From Prosthecobacter dejongeii (GTDB lineage: Bacteria; Verrucomicrobiota; Verrucomicrobiia; Verrucomicrobiales; Verrucomicrobiaceae): 64,000 nucleotides of DNA. Of the stretch, positions 25,440 through 64,000 are shown piece after piece. Location: the NCBI RefSeq assembly GCF_014203045.1, contig NZ_JACHIF010000001.1, forward strand, positions 1-64,000, written 5' to 3'. A model generated the notes under the pieces. It made no database searches, was not told the origin of the DNA, and saw only the letters and a program-made list of their open reading frames with translations. Every line of letters begins with the position of its first letter. The first letter of the stretch is position 1. The position numbers were made by a program, and so were the translations under genes.

Positions 25440-25461
25440 GCGAGTTAAAAACTCGCGCTCC
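25440..25461 (-). repeat. GGAGC-hairpin element
   Basis: On the minus strand GGAGC (25461-25457) is followed directly by a 7-bp stem, GCGAGTT and AACTCGC, with loop TTT. It has the same layout as the element beside the RAYT transposase at 53992 but different arm sequences. Confidence 0.7.
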
Positions 25462-32697: not shown

Positions 32698-32868
32698 TTC
32701 GGATCAAAAGGCTTGCCGGAGCCCCCGGTCTCCCTCCACCACCAGGCATGCCCAACTGGCCCTGGTCCACGACGTCCCCGCCCACTCAAAAAAATCCCCA
32801 CTTGGCCCAAGTCCCCCTTTTGCCCCTTGCCCGCCCCCGCCTCTTCCCGCACCTTGCCCCACGTCCTA

Positions 32869-32931
32869 GAGCGCGCGCGTCTCGCGTGCCGTTTTCGGCG
32901 TCCCGCCGAAGACCGTTCTCACGCCCCGCCA
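32869..32931 (+). repeat. Two-hairpin repeat, diverged copy
   Basis: Plus strand: AGAGC (32868-32872), stem GCGCGCG/CGCGTGC (32873-32879 and 32883-32889, one G-T wobble, loop TCT), then TTCGGCG (32894-32900), loop TCC, CGCCGAA (32904-32910), then GTTCTCAC. Element order and loops match the copies at 58220, 60900 and 61004 (minus sense), with changed but paired arms. Confidence 0.65.
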
Positions 32932-52279: not shown

Positions 52280-53851
52280 GTGTTGCAAACGCCTGACCAA
52301 GAACCTCTGGATACCCTGGGGACATCCCCTCCCTGCTGGAGCCCCGCCCTTACTCAAAAGTTAGCGCAGGACATTCTCCCCCGCTACCTATCCCAGTGCC
52401 GATGGTTCGGGGGAAAAGCACGCGCTTTGCAAAAGGTGGAGATCATCCAGGACACGCTCTTCCCAGGCACCTCCGTGCACATCCTCGGGGTGGAGATCAC
52501 CTTCCAGGAAGGCCCGCCCGAGCACTATCTCATGCCCCTCTGCGTCCGCTCCCCAGGCGAGCCACGAGAAGAGACCACATCGTCTCCGCATCGCTTGTTA
52601 GGCCAGTGGAGCGATGGCACCCGGCTTGAGGATGCCCTGCACACTCCCGAGTTCCAGGCAGCCCTCTTCCGGGGATTGATCGGCCACACCCCTTTAGCAG
52701 CCCCCCTTTCACTCACCTTAGAAAGCCCCGTCCAAGCCCCCACAGCCGACTTGACTCTAGCCGCCCTCCAGGCCCGCGTGCTCAGCGGTGAACAGTCCAA
52801 TACCTCCCTCAGCTACGCCGACCGCTGGCTGATCAAGTTTTTCCGCAAATTTGAATTCGGCATCCACCCGGAGGTGGAGTTGACCCAGCACCTCACGCGA
52901 CATCACTTTCAGGTCCCACCTTTTTTGAGCGCGCTCAATCTCCAGGCTCAGGGCCAGAGCGGCGTCGCCGCCATGCTCACGCACTACACCCCGCATGAGA
53001 ACGATGGATGGACCTTCACCCTGAAAGCCGTGCGGCAAGTGCTGGATCAAGTCCGGCAAACTCGCCAAACGCATTCAGCCGAAAGAGAAGCCGCCGTCAT
53101 CGGCAGAAGCAGCTACCCCAGCCGGGCCGCCCAGTTAGGCCAACTCACCGCCCGCATGCACATCGCCCTGGCGGCAGATTCCCTCCATGCCGACTTCAAA
53201 CCGCAGCCCTTCACCCACCACGATGGCCAAATCCTCAGCCAAGACATGCAGGCCAAGGCCACCCGCGTGCTCCAAGAACTGCACCAGCAATACCACCAAC
53301 TCCCCGAGTCCGCCCAGGCTCTGGCGCGTGAAATTTTAGACGGCCAGGACCACCTTTTACACGCCTACGAAAAGCTGCAGCAGGCAGACATCCAGTGCAG
53401 CCGCATCCGCGTGCATGGCGATTTCCACCTCGGCCAAACCCTCAATACCGGGCAGGATTTTGTCATCATTGATTTTGAGGGCGAACCCCGCTTGCCCCTC
53501 CACGAGCGGCGTCTGCATCGCCCCGCCCTGCGGGATGTCGCCGGCATGGTCCGTTCCTTTGAATATGCCGCCTCCGCCGCACTGCACGAGGCCCCTGCCG
53601 AGGAGCACCCCCTGCTCGCCCCCTGGGCCCAAGCCTGGGCCGACACCACCGTCCAAGCCTACCTCCACGCCTACTTCTCCACCGCTCACGGCCAAAGCTT
53701 CCTGCCCCAAACTCCCGCCAGCACCCAACTGCTGCTCGACCTCCACATCCTCGACAAAGCCCTCTACGAGATCGGTTACGAACTCAGCTACCGCCCCCAC
53801 CTCGTCCCCATCCCCCTCCGCGCCGTCGCCCGACTGCTGAAGACGATTTGA
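52280..53851 (+). CDS. Maltokinase-like phosphotransferase
   Basis: Aminoglycoside-phosphotransferase-fold kinase of 523 residues, related to the maltokinase half of trehalose synthase/maltokinase fusions. Visible motifs: CRWFGGKARAL near the N-terminus, catalytic RVHGDFHLGQTLNTG and metal-binding DFVIIDFEGEPRLP. It would phosphorylate maltose to feed the GlgE alpha-glucan route, but no treS or glgE gene lies nearby. The start is GTG at 52280 or TTG at 52283. It is 42 bases after the sulfatase stop. Confidence 0.83.
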   Translation: MLQTPDQEPLDTLGTSPPCWSPALTQKLAQDILPRYLSQCRWFGGKARALQKVEIIQDTLFPGTSVHILGVEITFQEGPPEHYLMPLCVRSPGEPREETTSSPHRLLGQWSDGTRLEDALHTPEFQAALFRGLIGHTPLAAPLSLTLESPVQAPTADLTLAALQARVLSGEQSNTSLSYADRWLIKFFRKFEFGIHPEVELTQHLTRHHFQVPPFLSALNLQAQGQSGVAAMLTHYTPHENDGWTFTLKAVRQVLDQVRQTRQTHSAEREAAVIGRSSYPSRAAQLGQLTARMHIALAADSLHADFKPQPFTHHDGQILSQDMQAKATRVLQELHQQYHQLPESAQALAREILDGQDHLLHAYEKLQQADIQCSRIRVHGDFHLGQTLNTGQDFVIIDFEGEPRLPLHERRLHRPALRDVAGMVRSFEYAASAALHEAPAEEHPLLAPWAQAWADTTVQAYLHAYFSTAHGQSFLPQTPASTQLLLDLHILDKALYEIGYELSYRPHLVPIPLRAVARLLKTI

Positions 53852-53984: not shown

Positions 53985-54015
53985 CCCGAGAGGAGCGCGG
54001 AGACTCTTCTCCGCA
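53985..54015 (+). repeat. GGAGC-hairpin element next to RAYT gene
   Basis: CCCGAGA then GGAGC (53992-53996), stem GCGGAGA (53997-54003), loop CTCT, TCTCCGC (54008-54014). Perfect 7-bp stem. It ends 13 bases from the 3' end of the transposase gene, the usual neighbourhood of a REP element. Confidence 0.75.
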
Positions 54016-54027
54016 TCGTGTGCCGCA

Positions 54028-55125
54028 TCACCCTACCGCACGCACTCGCAATCGGCGCAGCGAAAACAGATTCCCCGCACACTCGCTCAGCTTTCGCGCG
54101 CCATCTTTGCGTTTTGGGCCGAACCAACCCCGGTTCTCTTCAAACACGCTTTCCACAAACGCCTGGTTTCCCAGCACCAGCCCATCGGTAAAATAGCGCA
54201 CCCGCAGCCGCACCAGTTCCGCTGGGCTCAGTTTCCCCTTCTCAGCCAGCACTTTTCGGGCCTCCTCCGCGGTTACTCCCGGCCTAACCACGTTTGTGTT
54301 CTGCGCATCTCTCACCTCCATGCCACTGGCATACAGCAGGCAGCGGTAGGCCTTCGCCGCCTCGTGTTTCACCCATCCATCCACAGGTTTAGCCACCACT
54401 TTGCACAGCCCACGCTGGGCTCTCCGGCTACCACCCACGGCCTCGACATACCCACACCAGCGATAGTCTTTGGGATCTTCCACCAATCCCGCCCGCACCG
54501 GGTTCAGATCAATGTAAGCCGCCATCGTCCGCAGTGCTTCGCCCCCACTTTCCACCATCACGCTTTTGAAACGATCCATCCACAACGTGCCGCGTCGGCC
54601 CCGGCGTTTGTTGAACCAACGGCTGAAGCGTTCTTTGACCTCCTTGACGTAAAGGGAGAGGTCACAAAAACGTTTGTAGAGAGCTTCCAGTTTCTCCTGC
54701 ACTCGGGCTTCCAGTCCCAGGCGACGCAGCTCCGCGAATTCCTCACGCAGAAAGGCCAGGTAGGTCTTGCTGTAAAGCAGGCGCAGATGTTCGAAGAGTT
54801 TTTCTTCAGCAGCGGGACCTGCGAATCGCTGCAACCATACCTCACGCCGAGGCACCTCCACCAACACATGGAAGTGATTGCCCATGATGCAGTAAGTCAC
54901 CAGCTTCACGCCTGAAAAGTCCGCCAGCCGCCACATCAGCCGCTTCAGCGCTTCCTTTTCAACGTCGTCAAAAAAGACCTCACCACCGCAGGTGCGTGAC
55001 ATGACGTGGTAACAGTAACTTTCCAAGGGCCCCTTTCCCACCACTCGCCTGCGCCCGCCGGACCAAGAACGCGCCGCTGGGTAAGGAGCCGTCTTGGCAT
55101 TGATCCCAACAAGCTGCCGCTCCAT
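54028..55125 (-). CDS. REP-associated tyrosine transposase (RAYT, Y1_Tnp)
   Basis: Y1-type HUH nuclease of 365 residues, related to IS200/IS605 transposases and domesticated to mobilise REP hairpins. The HUH motif is YCIMGNHFHVLVEVP (His84 and His86 in this frame), with the RAYT-type C-terminal RRGRRGTLWMDRFKSVMVE and AAYIDLNPVRAGLVEDP blocks. The catalytic Tyr is not certain: LSLYVKEVKERF is a candidate. ATG 55125 has AAGGGA about 11 bases upstream and is preferred to the ATG at 55164. The flanking hairpin at 53992 has the same layout as elements at 25440, 58253, 60934, 61038 and 61685. Confidence 0.9.
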   Translation of the reverse strand: MERQLVGINAKTAPYPAARSWSGGRRRVVGKGPLESYCYHVMSRTCGGEVFFDDVEKEALKRLMWRLADFSGVKLVTYCIMGNHFHVLVEVPRREVWLQRFAGPAAEEKLFEHLRLLYSKTYLAFLREEFAELRRLGLEARVQEKLEALYKRFCDLSLYVKEVKERFSRWFNKRRGRRGTLWMDRFKSVMVESGGEALRTMAAYIDLNPVRAGLVEDPKDYRWCGYVEAVGGSRRAQRGLCKVVAKPVDGWVKHEAAKAYRCLLYASGMEVRDAQNTNVVRPGVTAEEARKVLAEKGKLSPAELVRLRVRYFTDGLVLGNQAFVESVFEENRGWFGPKRKDGARKLSECAGNLFSLRRLRVRAVG

Positions 55126-55206
55126 GGCATTCCCTTGAAGATCAAGCGTTCGGGTGGTTTTCATGAGGAGAAATCAAAGCCAAGAAATTAAAGAAGCAGC
55201 ACTGAT

Positions 55207-55345
55207 TGCCTGGCATGAATGGCACATGCTCTTGCAACCCGGAAACCTAGGCTGAGTTGCACTGGCCACCCAACCGTTCCACACTTTTCAAACAGCTCAA
55301 AATCAACGATACCTTACCTTAACTGAGTGGCATTCATGCCAGGCA
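55207..55345. repeat. Inverted repeat of 19 bases flanking a 101-bp segment
   Basis: TGCCTGGCATGAATGGCAC (55207-55225) and GTGGCATTCATGCCAGGCA (55327-55345) are reverse complements except for one position. They lie upstream of the RAYT gene and just beyond the stop of the next gene. They could end a tiny MITE-like unit or form a large hairpin. Confidence 0.65.
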
Positions 55346-55355
55346 TCTTTTTCCT

Positions 55356-58219: not shown

Positions 58220-58278
58220 GTGATAACGGAGTTCCGCGAGACGCAGAACTCAGCACGCAAGACGCGTGCGCTCCATGG
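58220..58278 (-). repeat. Two-hairpin repeat, copy at 58.2 kb
   Basis: From the minus strand: GGAGC (58274-58270), stem GCACGC/GCGTGC, then a GTTC...GAAC hairpin and GTTATCAC. One base shorter than the copies at 60900 and 61004. Together with the neighbouring CATCACTC hairpin it fills the gap 58139-58350. Confidence 0.75.
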
Positions 58279-60899: not shown

Positions 60900-60959
60900 G
60901 TGATAACGGGGTTCCGCGAGGACGCAGAACCCTGCACGCGAGACGCGTGCGCTCCATGG
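60900..60959 (-). repeat. Two-hairpin repeat, copy at 60.9 kb
   Basis: Minus strand: GGAGC (60955-60951), stem GCACGCG (60950-60944), loop TCT, CGCGTGC (60940-60934), then GTTCTGCG (60930-60923), loop TCCT, CGCGGAAC, then CCCGTTATCAC. Nearly identical to the next copy. Confidence 0.8.
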
Positions 60960-61003: not shown

Positions 61004-61063
61004 GTGATAACGGAGTTCCGCGAGGACGCAGAACCCTGCACGCGAGACGCGTGCGCTCCATGG
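61004..61063 (-). repeat. Two-hairpin repeat, copy at 61.0 kb
   Basis: Minus strand: GGAGC (61059-61055), stem GCACGCG/CGCGTGC with loop TCT (61054-61038), then the second hairpin and a terminal GTTATCAC. Separated from the previous copy by 44 bases. Confidence 0.8.
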
Positions 61064-61111: not shown

Positions 61112-64000
61112 TCAGTTGCCATGGCCGAGCTCCTGGTAGTAACGTTTTACGAGGTCGCGGAAGGCGGGGGGGACGGGGTCGCGGTCCACGGGGACGGTGG
61201 GGTTGGCGGGGTCGCGCCTGGCGAGTTCTTCGGCGACGCGGTTGCGGAGTTCGACGAGGGGCTGGGTGATGCACATGCCGAGGTGGTCGGACTGGGGCGC
61301 GAGGTTGTTGCGCTCGTGGTCAATGCGGAGGGCGCGGGCGTTGTCGAGAACTTTGGCGGCTTCGTTCCGAAGCTGCGGCTGGGTGAGAAGCTCTTCGACG
61401 TTGCGGAGGCGGTCGGCCCATTCTTGGTAACCGCTGCCTGTGAGGGGGCTGCGGTCGGTTTGCTCGGCGGTTTCGTCGAAGAAGAAAGCACCGCCGCTGC
61501 GGTCGGCCCCGGTGGCCTGAGGGTAGCTGCTGCGGCGATCGTTGCCGGAGAGGTTGCGGCCTGCGGAGGGGGTGGAAGCATTGCCATTGGCCAAAGTTTT
61601 ACCACCCTTGTTGTTAGGTGAATTGCCAGGGCCGTTGGGTTGATTGGGTGCGTTGGGATTGGCGGGAGCGTTAGAGCTGGCGTTGCGAACAGGAGTGTCC
61701 GCGCTCCCCTCGGGGGAGTTAGCGAGGCCTTGGACGCCTTGACCTCCAGGCGTGGTAGGATCTTGCGAGCCGTTGGGGCCTTCGCTTGGTTTTTGACCGC
61801 TTTGACCACCTTGACCTTGGGCCATTTGGGGGATGGGATTTCCGGGGTCGCCGCTGGGTTGTTCGCCTTTTTGGCCGCCAGTGGAATCTGGGCCTTCGCC
61901 GGGTTTGGGAGTTTTTTCGCTGGGGGCCTGGGCGGTGGCTTGGCCGTCTTTTTGGTTAGGTTGGCTGCCTTGGCCGTTTTCGCTAGGTTGGTTTGGGGTG
62001 GTGGGGCTTTTGGGATTGTTGGAGGCGATAGAGCTTTCGTTGCGGACAGGCTGCGTAGCCGCGGAGCGAATGTCCGCGCTCCCCTCGGGGGCGTTCGCTG
62101 CGGTTTGGCGGCCTTGACCCGCTTGACCTTGCTGACTGCCTTGACCTTCTGACTCACCCTTCCCTTCCTCCTGCTGAATGCCTTCGATGAGTTTATCCAG
62201 CTCGCTGCGAGCGAGGCGTAGAGATTCGGTTTCGCTGCCGAGGACGCTTTCGGCGGCTTTTTCGACGTTTTGCTGGAGCTGGGTGACGGTGGTGTTTGCT
62301 TGGCGTTCGGCGTCTTGGGCTTCGCTGCGGTTGCCGTAGCGGGATTGCAGGCGGGCTTCTTCGAGGTTTTCTTCGAGGCCACCGGTTTGGGCGTCGCGCA
62401 CGGCTTCGTAGAGGCGGCGATGCAACAGGGGGTTGTTGCCTTCGGCCTGCTCGCTGAGGCGGCGCATGTTTTCCAGGAGGTCTTTGACCTGGCTGGCTTG
62501 ATCCTCGATCTGGCGGGCGATCTGGCTGCCATCGAGGACTTTTTCCAAGGCGGCGCTGGTGTCGCTGCCGGCCTTGGGGGTCTTTTGGTTTTCGAGAGCT
62601 TCGCTGATCTTTTTCTGGGCTTCGGCCACGCTGCGGGCCTGCTGGCGCACCTGGGTCATTTCATCGGTGAAACGTTTGGCGGTCTTTTGTTTGAAGTCCT
62701 CCTGCATGGCCTCCAGTTCGCGCTGGGCGCGGGTGGCGGCGTTGGCGGCTTCGGCCAGTTGCTGCTGCTTGAGCTTTTCAGCGGCGTCCATCACTTGCTC
62801 GCGCGTTTGTTCCAGTTGGTCTTTGGCCTCGGCGAGGTTGGAGGTGTTTTCGGAGGTGTCCATGCGCTCCTGGAGGTCGTCCACATCGCGGAGGAGTTGT
62901 TCTTGCTCGTCCTGGAGGCGTTTGAGTTGATTGGCCAGCTCCTGTTTTTCTTCTTCGCTCTGGGCCTTGTCGAGTTGCTTTTGCAGCTCTTTCATTTTCT
63001 CCGCCAGGGCTTCCTGGCGGCGGGCCAGTTCCTTGAGGCGATTGAGAACTTGGAGGTTTTCTTGTTGTTCAGCCGTTTGTTCGGGGCTGGCTTTTTTCTC
63101 CTCTTCGTAGCGCTGTTCCTGCTGCTTGAGTTCCAGATTCATGATCTGGTTTTGCTGGGATTGTTCAGAGGCGCTGGCGCTCTGGCTAGGCTGGTTTTGC
63201 CGCATCACGCTGTGCTCGCGGCTCTGGGCGCGGTGCAGCCATTCGAGGGCGCTTTGTTCAAAGGTGAGGGCCTGATTCAGCGAGGCGCGTTTCTTTTCCT
63301 CAGCCGCCTGGGTGAGCGGGGACTGGGCGTCCTTCATGGACTTCCAGGCCTCGGTGAGGGTGTTGCGGATCTCTGGATCTTCGGCCTTTTCCATGAGCTC
63401 TTTGGTCTGCTCAAGGGCGAGGTTTTGAGATTCCTGGACGACGCTGACATCGGGCGAGGCGGCCTCCATGGTGCGGCCCGCATTGGCATCGCGGATGAGT
63501 TTCCAGGTGGCGTTGACGATCTCTTTTTCCAGCTTCACCAGCTTGTCCAGATTGGTCTCTTTTTTGGGTTCGCCGGGTTCGGGCGGTGGGGCTTCAGCCT
63601 CGCGGAAGATGTCTTCAAAATGGCGGACGTCGGCAAAAAACATGTCGCTCATGGCGCGGCGGACTTCCCCCTGGGGGCCTTTGTCTTCGGCCCAAAAGTG
63701 GTAACTCACGAGCTGGCGCGGCTGGGCGCTTTCATGCTCCAGGGCCAGTAGCTCGCGCACATCCTGTTTTTTCGCTGGGGCGGTGGGGCCATGCTTAAAG
63801 ACGACCTCCTTACTCTGCCCGGCGAGGCTGAAGCTGACGCCACTCTGGGTGACACCGAGATCATCCCACACCTTCGCCTCCACGGGGAGTTCCTGAATGG
63901 CGGAGACCTGGATGTCGCGTTTGGGGAAGACGACTTCGATTTTGGCGAGTTGATTCGACTGCACCTTCACGCTGAGCCAGGGCGGATTTTTATTGGCGCG
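61112..64000 (-). CDS. Very long coiled-coil membrane-linked protein, cut by the window edge
   Basis: C-terminal about 960 residues of a larger protein; the frame is still open at base 64000 (reading ...RANKNPPWLS), so the start is outside. A beta-like periplasmic part near the edge is followed by long Gln/Glu/Lys-rich coiled coil (about 150-620 of the visible part, with QEALAEKMKELQKQLDKAQ-like heptads). Then comes a low-complexity linker of about 230 residues (Gly/Pro/Asn/Ser/Gln) and a conserved C-terminal block of 100 residues. The layout resembles DUF4175-type proteins that stand with BatA/VWA proteins. Two GGAGC-hairpin repeats lie in frame in the linker (61685-61707 and 62042-62082). 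Confidence 0.85.
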   Translation of the reverse strand, partial: RANKNPPWLSVKVQSNQLAKIEVVFPKRDIQVSAIQELPVEAKVWDDLGVTQSGVSFSLAGQSKEVVFKHGPTAPAKKQDVRELLALEHESAQPRQLVSYHFWAEDKGPQGEVRRAMSDMFFADVRHFEDIFREAEAPPPEPGEPKKETNLDKLVKLEKEIVNATWKLIRDANAGRTMEAASPDVSVVQESQNLALEQTKELMEKAEDPEIRNTLTEAWKSMKDAQSPLTQAAEEKKRASLNQALTFEQSALEWLHRAQSREHSVMRQNQPSQSASASEQSQQNQIMNLELKQQEQRYEEEKKASPEQTAEQQENLQVLNRLKELARRQEALAEKMKELQKQLDKAQSEEEKQELANQLKRLQDEQEQLLRDVDDLQERMDTSENTSNLAEAKDQLEQTREQVMDAAEKLKQQQLAEAANAATRAQRELEAMQEDFKQKTAKRFTDEMTQVRQQARSVAEAQKKISEALENQKTPKAGSDTSAALEKVLDGSQIARQIEDQASQVKDLLENMRRLSEQAEGNNPLLHRRLYEAVRDAQTGGLEENLEEARLQSRYGNRSEAQDAERQANTTVTQLQQNVEKAAESVLGSETESLRLARSELDKLIEGIQQEEGKGESEGQGSQQGQAGQGRQTAANAPEGSADIRSAATQPVRNESSIASNNPKSPTTPNQPSENGQGSQPNQKDGQATAQAPSEKTPKPGEGPDSTGGQKGEQPSGDPGNPIPQMAQGQGGQSGQKPSEGPNGSQDPTTPGGQGVQGLANSPEGSADTPVRNASSNAPANPNAPNQPNGPGNSPNNKGGKTLANGNASTPSAGRNLSGNDRRSSYPQATGADRSGGAFFFDETAEQTDRSPLTGSGYQEWADRLRNVEELLTQPQLRNEAAKVLDNARALRIDHERNNLAPQSDHLGMCITQPLVELRNRVAEELARRDPANPTVPVDRDPVPPAFRDLVKRYYQELGHGN
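61685..61707 (-). repeat. GGAGC-hairpin element inside a coding linker, copy 1
   Basis: Minus strand GGAGC (61707-61703), stem GCGGACA (61702-61696), loop CTCC, TGTTCGC (61691-61685, one G-T wobble). The encoded peptide is EGSADTPVRN. Confidence 0.72.
62042..62082 (-). repeat. GGAGC-hairpin element inside a coding linker, copy 2 (expanded loop)
   Basis: Minus strand GGAGC (62082-62078), stem GCGGACA (62077-62071) with TGTCCGC (62048-62042), loop of 22 bases that itself contains GGCT/AGCC. The encoded peptide is EGSADIRSAATQPVRN, the copy-1 peptide with six residues added after GSAD. Confidence 0.72.

Follow-up and report, generated by a model that had tools for sequence, protein, structure and literature searches.

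A GGAG-tagged REP hairpin of Prosthecobacter dejongeii is likely to belong to a short RAYT and not to the transposase gene beside it

Introduction

In the 64-kb stretch of the Prosthecobacter dejongeii genome analyzed in this study (hereafter, the window), a hairpin preceded by GGAGC lies on the plus strand at positions 53992 to 54014, 13 bp from the stop codon of a transposase gene, which raises the question of which enzyme this repeat belongs to. In the papers on REP-associated tyrosine transposases (RAYTs) considered here, the canonical guide is GT[AG]G, and subclass 2.6 and class 3 are the ones described with atypical feet. The reading that we favor, with a probability of approximately 0.85, is that the hairpin, a REP with a GGAG tag, is likely to belong to a short RAYT of approximately 210 amino acids, which was not found in this genome, and not to the adjoining transposase of 378 amino acids.

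Results

GGAG-tagged hairpins in the window and in the genome

The hairpin at 53992-54014 reads GGAGC GCGGAGA ctct TCTCCGC and is placed between the frames at 52280-53851 and 54028-55164; the identical 23-base sequence is found in relatives next to two short RAYTs, L169 and L179. The first-pass annotation listed eight stretches with a common layout, i.e., GGAGC followed by a stem, and all eight are present as it described them, with AGAGC as the tag at 32868-32889. Six of the seven GGAGC sites lie on the minus strand, and 53992-54014 is the one on the plus strand. R1, a small covariance model built from copies of the P. dejongeii genome itself, matches the window eight times at E ≤ 1, once per site (the site at 62042 is matched as 62061-62082).

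Three stem families occur in the window, namely, A (GCACGCG), B (GCGAGTT), and C (GCGGACA or GCGGAGA). Family A comprises a REP on the minus strand at 60934-60955 (GGAGC GCACGCG tct CGCGTGC) and two REPINs, each of which spans both strands and was recognized by its stem families and its R1 match. In the REPIN at 58228-58274, the plus-strand arm (58228-58248; GGAG TTCCGCG aga CGCAGAA) has one unpaired position and the minus-strand arm (58253-58274; GGAGC GCACGCG tct TGCGTGC) has one wobble. The REPIN at 61012-61059 is composed of a plus-strand arm at 61012-61033 (GGAG TTCCGCG agga CGCAGAA) and a minus-strand arm at 61038-61059 (GGAGC GCACGCG tct CGCGTGC). The AGAGC copy at 32868-32889 (plus strand) is probably a degenerate family A REP, and family B is found at 25440-25461 on the minus strand (GGAGC GCGAGTT ttt AACTCGC); these two, like the REP at 60934-60955, were recognized by layout and R1 match. 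Family C, to which 53992-54014 belongs, has two minus-strand copies assigned by layout and stem family: 61685-61707 (GGAGC GCGGACA ctcc TGTTCGC), with one imperfect pair, and 62042-62082, in which a 22-base loop separates GGAGC GCGGACA from TGTCCGC.

The families were sorted in 864 kb, i.e., the window and 40 further stretches, 20 of which were mostly chosen around Y1 transposases. Family A consists there of GCACGCG tct, in REPINs with GGAG TTCCGCG as the partner, family B of GCGAATA tcc and GCGAGTT ttt, and family C of GCGGACA ctcc together with the GCGGAGA ctct of the window; further stem families adjoin the genome's own RAYTs L007, L008, and L009. Free arm variation inside one family was ruled out, as the copies sort into families that have their own stem, loop, and flanks. 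The arms covary, as had been suggested, but they do not do so freely and fall into discrete families. In the same way, the supposedly fixed GGAGC tag is fixed in GGAG but not in the fifth base, which is C or T in P. dejongeii, whereas some loci in relatives have A or G as well.

Pairing in family C was assessed by a pattern search in which two positions per arm varied independently and pairing was not demanded; this search replaced alignment A3, which was circular in that its rows had been picked by pairing. Among the matches listed, 78 had zero mismatches to the pattern, and the arms of 75 of these are complementary, two contain a G-T pair, and one is mismatched, whereas shuffling gave 29 of 78 complementary on average. 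Therefore, the family C stems are under selection for pairing, within limits, and this part of the earlier proposal stands. The wide stem variation that a RAYT was said to tolerate is observed between RAYTs; any one short RAYT goes with a stem family of its own, in which a few compensated pairs vary.

GGAGC hairpins are far more frequent than in shuffled sequence, both in the window and in a 464-kb portion of its contig. In the window, GGAGC with a perfect 6-bp stem and a loop of 3 to 6 bases occurs five times, where shuffled sequence averages 0.13 (30 shuffles), and it ranks highest of all 1,024 pentamers for such hairpins. With a perfect 7-bp stem and the same loop range, 11 copies were counted in the 464 kb versus 0.45 after shuffling (20 shuffles, maximum of 2), and the scrambled tag GAGGC gave 1 versus 0.35 in the same count. 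Genome-wide, R1 gives at least 112 matches at E ≤ 1 for all families taken together, with approximately one expected (150 of 3,019 candidates scored). The R1-matching GGAG hairpins bunch in a few regions of the genome, on contigs C3 (11-142 kb), C5 (355-462 kb), and C16.

Short RAYTs as likely partners of GGAG

Sixteen Y1 matches were found in the P. dejongeii genome: four of the 378-residue type, five proteins of 148 to 158 amino acids that match the IS200 profile over its full length, and seven short RAYT-like proteins, one of which lies inside a ClpB frame. Among the other six, GGAGC hairpins flank L007 on both sides and L008 on one, and L009 is accompanied by GGAGT hairpins. Across 35 short-RAYT loci (6 own and 29 from relatives, for the most part the best locus per genome), GGAG ranks first among the tetramers, being present at 22 loci with 110 counts over 358 hairpin registers (22-fold), where one long stem may count in several registers. 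The GGAG-linked proteins have approximately 210 amino acids and form a clade that is distinct from the 378-residue type. They share the HUH and Y---NP core and the residues W94, Q95, D100, and R104 (alignment A4, in which 10 of 16 rows are GGAG-linked). Against the NCBIfam RAYT profile, L007 scores 81.5 bits, which is over the cut-off of 80, and L169 scores 61.7 bits, which is under it. The core of the first-pass annotation is upheld: the GGAG(C)-tagged repeats are a real REP family, and RAYT-type transposases accompany them. The GGAG hairpins are likely recognized by a short RAYT rather than by the 378-residue neighbor.

The residue four positions after the conserved tryptophan (Phe98 in E. 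coli TnpAREP) tracks the tag across 95 short-RAYT loci, i.e., the 35 loci above and 60 from among the matches listed. GGAG occurs at least twice at 29 of the 34 loci with Tyr98 versus 2 of the 61 loci without it, and both of these 2 loci have more GTGG. GT[AG]G, by comparison, occurs at least twice at 2 of the 34 Tyr98 loci. REPs lie on both sides of the short RAYT gene at 27 of the 34. Most GT[AG]G users have His101, and GT[AG]G occurs at least twice at 28 of the 38 loci of the His101 class. In the tree of this first set, from which 2 of the 95 loci were left out for short coverage, the GGAG users are one clade among the labelled rows (99/99). R101 alone was considered separately as the tag determinant and was rejected; R101 without Y98 goes with GGAG in 0 of 18 cases, and R101 is reported in subclasses with GT[AG]G in the portion of PMC6006769 considered.

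The association was weaker in a second set, for which the best 80 of 431 matches from named genome records were taken and 13 duplicates were dropped; among the 67 counted, GGAG was found in 14 of 29 with Tyr98 versus 5 of 38 without it (p = 0.0024). GGAG lies on both sides in records of Lamprocystis purpurea and Candidatus Methylomirabilis in this set, and the RAYTs using GGAG are thus spread over Verrucomicrobiota and reach into these two records. At L323, L299, and L318, which are exceptions to the Tyr98 rule, GGAG hairpins were observed at RAYTs with ESWDR or ESYDH motifs. When the labelled rows were pooled (63 of 160 rows were dropped, as they had no clear guide), Tyr98 with Arg or Thr101 corresponded to GGAG in 41 of 42 rows, and the remainder corresponded to GT[AG]G in 52 of 55. 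The guide needs three changes on the pooled tree, and the residue rule has two or three independent pairs, where at least six are needed. Because the independent switches are so few, residues 98 and 101 are put forward from the sequence correlation as hypothetical determinants of the tag.

GGAG would be no guide of its own if these hairpins were REPs of the ordinary GTAG type, as in Pseudomonas (GTAGGAGC followed by the stem), in which GTA had eroded. According to part of PMC3686654, GTAGGAGC or GTGGGAGC often precedes the stem in Pseudomonas REPs, so GGAGC occupies the same place. However, the Tyr98 loci favor C, A, and A (54, 60, and 66%) in the three bases before GGAG, and erosion would not leave GGAG unchanged next to such a variety of RAYTs and stems; we consider this origin very unlikely.

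The 378-residue transposase as a probably separate mobile element

The coding frame beside the hairpin was corrected to 54028-55164 on the minus strand. It encodes a RAYT-like Y1/HUH transposase of 378 amino acids, with the HUH motif HFH and the catalytic tyrosine in YIDLNP (Y1_Tnp, 39.9 bits; cut-off, 23), which its translation, profile, and copies identify as a multicopy mobile gene. Three more full-length copies (97, 96, and 84%) are present in the genome, and this total of four differs from the general rule for RAYTs of one full-length gene per REP type. The gene is found in 37 of 55 relatives at E ≤ 1e-20, with at least 35 copies in one of them.

The homology of the element starts at a GATGCCAGGCA tag (often AATGCCAGGCATT in relatives), approximately 50 bp before the ATG, and stops at, or a few bases beyond, the stop codon. 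The left-end tag in the window is CATGCCAGGCAATCAGTG, at 55200-55217 on the minus strand, and GATGCC.. is found in the other own copies. The left-end tag of this family is often in tandem, up to four times, with a short flank between the tags at some loci (tandem tags at L018, L063, L066, L119, L139, L142, L147, and L148). In the copies L132 to L141 of genome G049, the last codons and the stop vary by copy, as if they were supplied by the flank. A stretch of 128 bp upstream of the transposase (55225-55352, no strand assigned) is 90% alike to one upstream of the paralogue L019 and adjoins the inverted arms TGCCTGGCATGAATG / CATTCATGCCAGGCA. No empty site of the element was found in the eight genomes queried, five of which gave no match; the relatives G033 and G018 have other sequence after the homologue of the gene at 52280-53851, which we take to be maltokinase-like. 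The empty-site search with the flank of L019 found no second copy of it.

The first-pass annotation took this adjoining protein to be the RAYT that uses GGAG(C), and its position and motifs are consistent with such a role: it adjoins the hairpin in the window, has the HUH and Y motifs, and matches NCBIfam REP_Tyr_transpos partially, under the cut-off. A GGAG hairpin lies within 50 bp of the stop codon in two of the four own copies, namely, that of the window and an imperfect one beside L018, which is outside the perfect-stem count described below. At 59 loci of the 378-residue type (4 own, 40 retrieved, and 15 of 29 relative loci), GGAG is still the top tetramer (8-fold, 7 counts over 80). Nevertheless, GGAG hairpins with a perfect 7-bp stem within 700 bp are present at 5 of these 59 loci versus 22 of the 35 short-RAYT loci. 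The residues with which RAYTs read the guide (W94, Q95, E/D100, H/R101, and R104) are absent; the protein reads WMDRFKSVMV, i.e., the tryptophan is followed by MDRFKSVMV and not by the Q....(E/D)(H/R)..R of E. coli TnpAREP, whose guide residues are given as W94, Q95, E100, H101, and R104 in the portion of PMC6006769 considered. REPs were not found on both sides of the 378-residue gene, and the window hairpin is on one side only.

Comparison of genomes gives the same answer. The copy number of the 378-residue gene is unrelated to the number of R1 matches at E ≤ 0.05 in 56 genomes (rho = 0.13, p = 0.33), where the counts in relatives are lower bounds (145 candidates per genome scored, with stricter filters). 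Of the 13 genomes outside the genus that carry the gene, 10 lack R1 matches at E ≤ 0.05, which indicates that they have no close family rather than no GGAG REP, as R1 was trained on the P. dejongeii genome. The excess of hairpins had been expected to depend on the presence of the RAYT; instead, 10 genomes of the genus without the 378-residue protein equal 25 with it, own included, in R1 matches (Mann-Whitney p = 1.0). The family C copies tend to be fewer in the genus genomes that have the gene (p = 0.057). The locus counts and the 56-genome comparison lead us to reject the 378-residue protein as the cognate enzyme, which makes the role first proposed for it very unlikely; it is probably not the enzyme to which the REP at 53992-54014 belongs, and its position near REPs may reflect insertion beside REPs or into REP-rich spacers, or some weak functional link. 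If the hairpins were transcription terminators or another kind of RNA hairpin, with no tie to transposases, this would fit the place of the window copy between two frames and the conserved pairing. However, they have a fixed 5' tag and are found to both sides of RAYT genes and in either orientation, and the copies listed have no T run after the stem, which leaves this interpretation scarcely credible.

Family C copies as probable relics

RAYTs with the sequence WQPDYFDRLIR were found in relatives (L169, L173, L179, L192, L197, and L212), and these carry GGAGC hairpins with the arms GCGGACA, GCGGAGA, GCGGGCA, or GCGGTCA. The P. dejongeii genome contains 18 family C copies within one mismatch, 5 of which are exact, and a reversed-pattern control gave none. 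A family C RAYT was not found in this genome, in which the best match is L007 at 50%, with different REPs; its absence is likely but not certain, and the assembly is rated 96% complete. Family C copies number 6 to 28 in the seven genus genomes that have a family C RAYT, which is higher than in the remaining 28 (one-sided p = 0.008; p = 0.085 when RAYT fragments are counted as presence). Six genus genomes with no family C RAYT match of at least 60%, own included, contain 16 to 29 copies. The copies in P. dejongeii are probably relics of a lost RAYT or are served by a related RAYT.

RAYT genes inside host genes

A short RAYT-like Y1 transposase was observed in frame, with no stop, inside a ClpB-type AAA+ gene on the minus strand of contig C6 (L006:412-3252). 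It is located between the AAA_lid_9 and AAA_2 domains in an open frame of 1,114 amino acids, and no match that covers both ClpB flanks was found among those listed for relatives. In relatives, host domains lie on both sides of a RAYT in CarB (L175), a glycosyltransferase (L168 and L187), and a zinc dehydrogenase/GFO_IDH_MocA (L210 and L220), and on one side in an adenosine deaminase (L218) and an Eco57I methylase (L226). GGAG REPs surround the RAYT within the glycosyltransferase frame in L168 and L187. The in-frame position of these RAYTs within host enzymes would point to an ability of RAYT genes to move as a unit, together with REPs in two of the cases.

Discussion

By analogy with E. coli TnpAREP, a short RAYT would read GGAG just 5' of the foot of the hairpin on single-stranded DNA and would cut and rejoin at this tag, by which the repeats could be spread between genes. 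After loss of the RAYT, the repeats would stay as relics, as has probably happened in P. dejongeii. The tag may depart from GT[AG]G since the residues near the guide differ, i.e., Tyr98 is combined with Arg or Thr101. The 378-residue gene is best explained as a separate mobile element that came to lie beside the REP, and the locus is a caution that the transposase nearest a repeat need not be the enzyme of that repeat.

GGAG, if this is true, would be a second address tag for RAYTs beside the known GTAG/GTGG, and a clade with correlated residues would make the reading of the tag a direct question of residue swaps. The more general proposal of a readable RAYT guide code, comprising a GGAG clade, residues 98 and 101 that set the second base of the tag, and REP specificity that is predictable and switchable, is a tentative one, to which we give somewhat less than an even chance. 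A search of the running text of open-licence articles for words that start with GGAG found none alongside RAYT, TnpAREP, or REP-associated tyrosine transposase, and the main text of PMC3733652 contains no word beginning with GGAG. The tag looks like a variant guide that is apparently new.

The 378-residue gene resembles TIRYT/TIRtron (PMC3733652) and TnpAY1 subclass 2.3 (PMC6006769), as far as they are described in parts of these articles, in being RAYT-like, long, and multicopy, with no REPs of its own found; the likeness is one of description. Its copies are 96-97% alike within the genome, unlike those reported for subclass 2.3 in the portion considered. The GTAG- and CGTC-tagged repeats are also tagged palindromes and also occur in the PVC superphylum, of which Opitutus terrae is named as highly enriched in GTAG repeats; they differ in their tags, which are GTAG and CGTC and not GGAG (PMC3733652, in part).

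The closest known systems are the REPs and RAYTs of E. coli, Pseudomonas, and Stenotrophomonas, as described in parts of PMC2817692, PMC3686654, and PMC6006769. They likewise have a 4-nucleotide tag 5' of a hairpin, families of copies, REPINs (inverted doublets), one REP family per RAYT, and REPs on both sides of the gene, and their proteins share the HUH and Y---NP core and W94, Q95, (E/D)100, and R104 with the GGAG-linked ones. On the other hand, the tag of the GGAG-linked RAYTs is GGAG and not GT[AG]G, and they combine Tyr98 with Arg or Thr101; the corresponding residues of E. coli TnpAREP (4er8, with numbering from W94) are Phe98 and His101.
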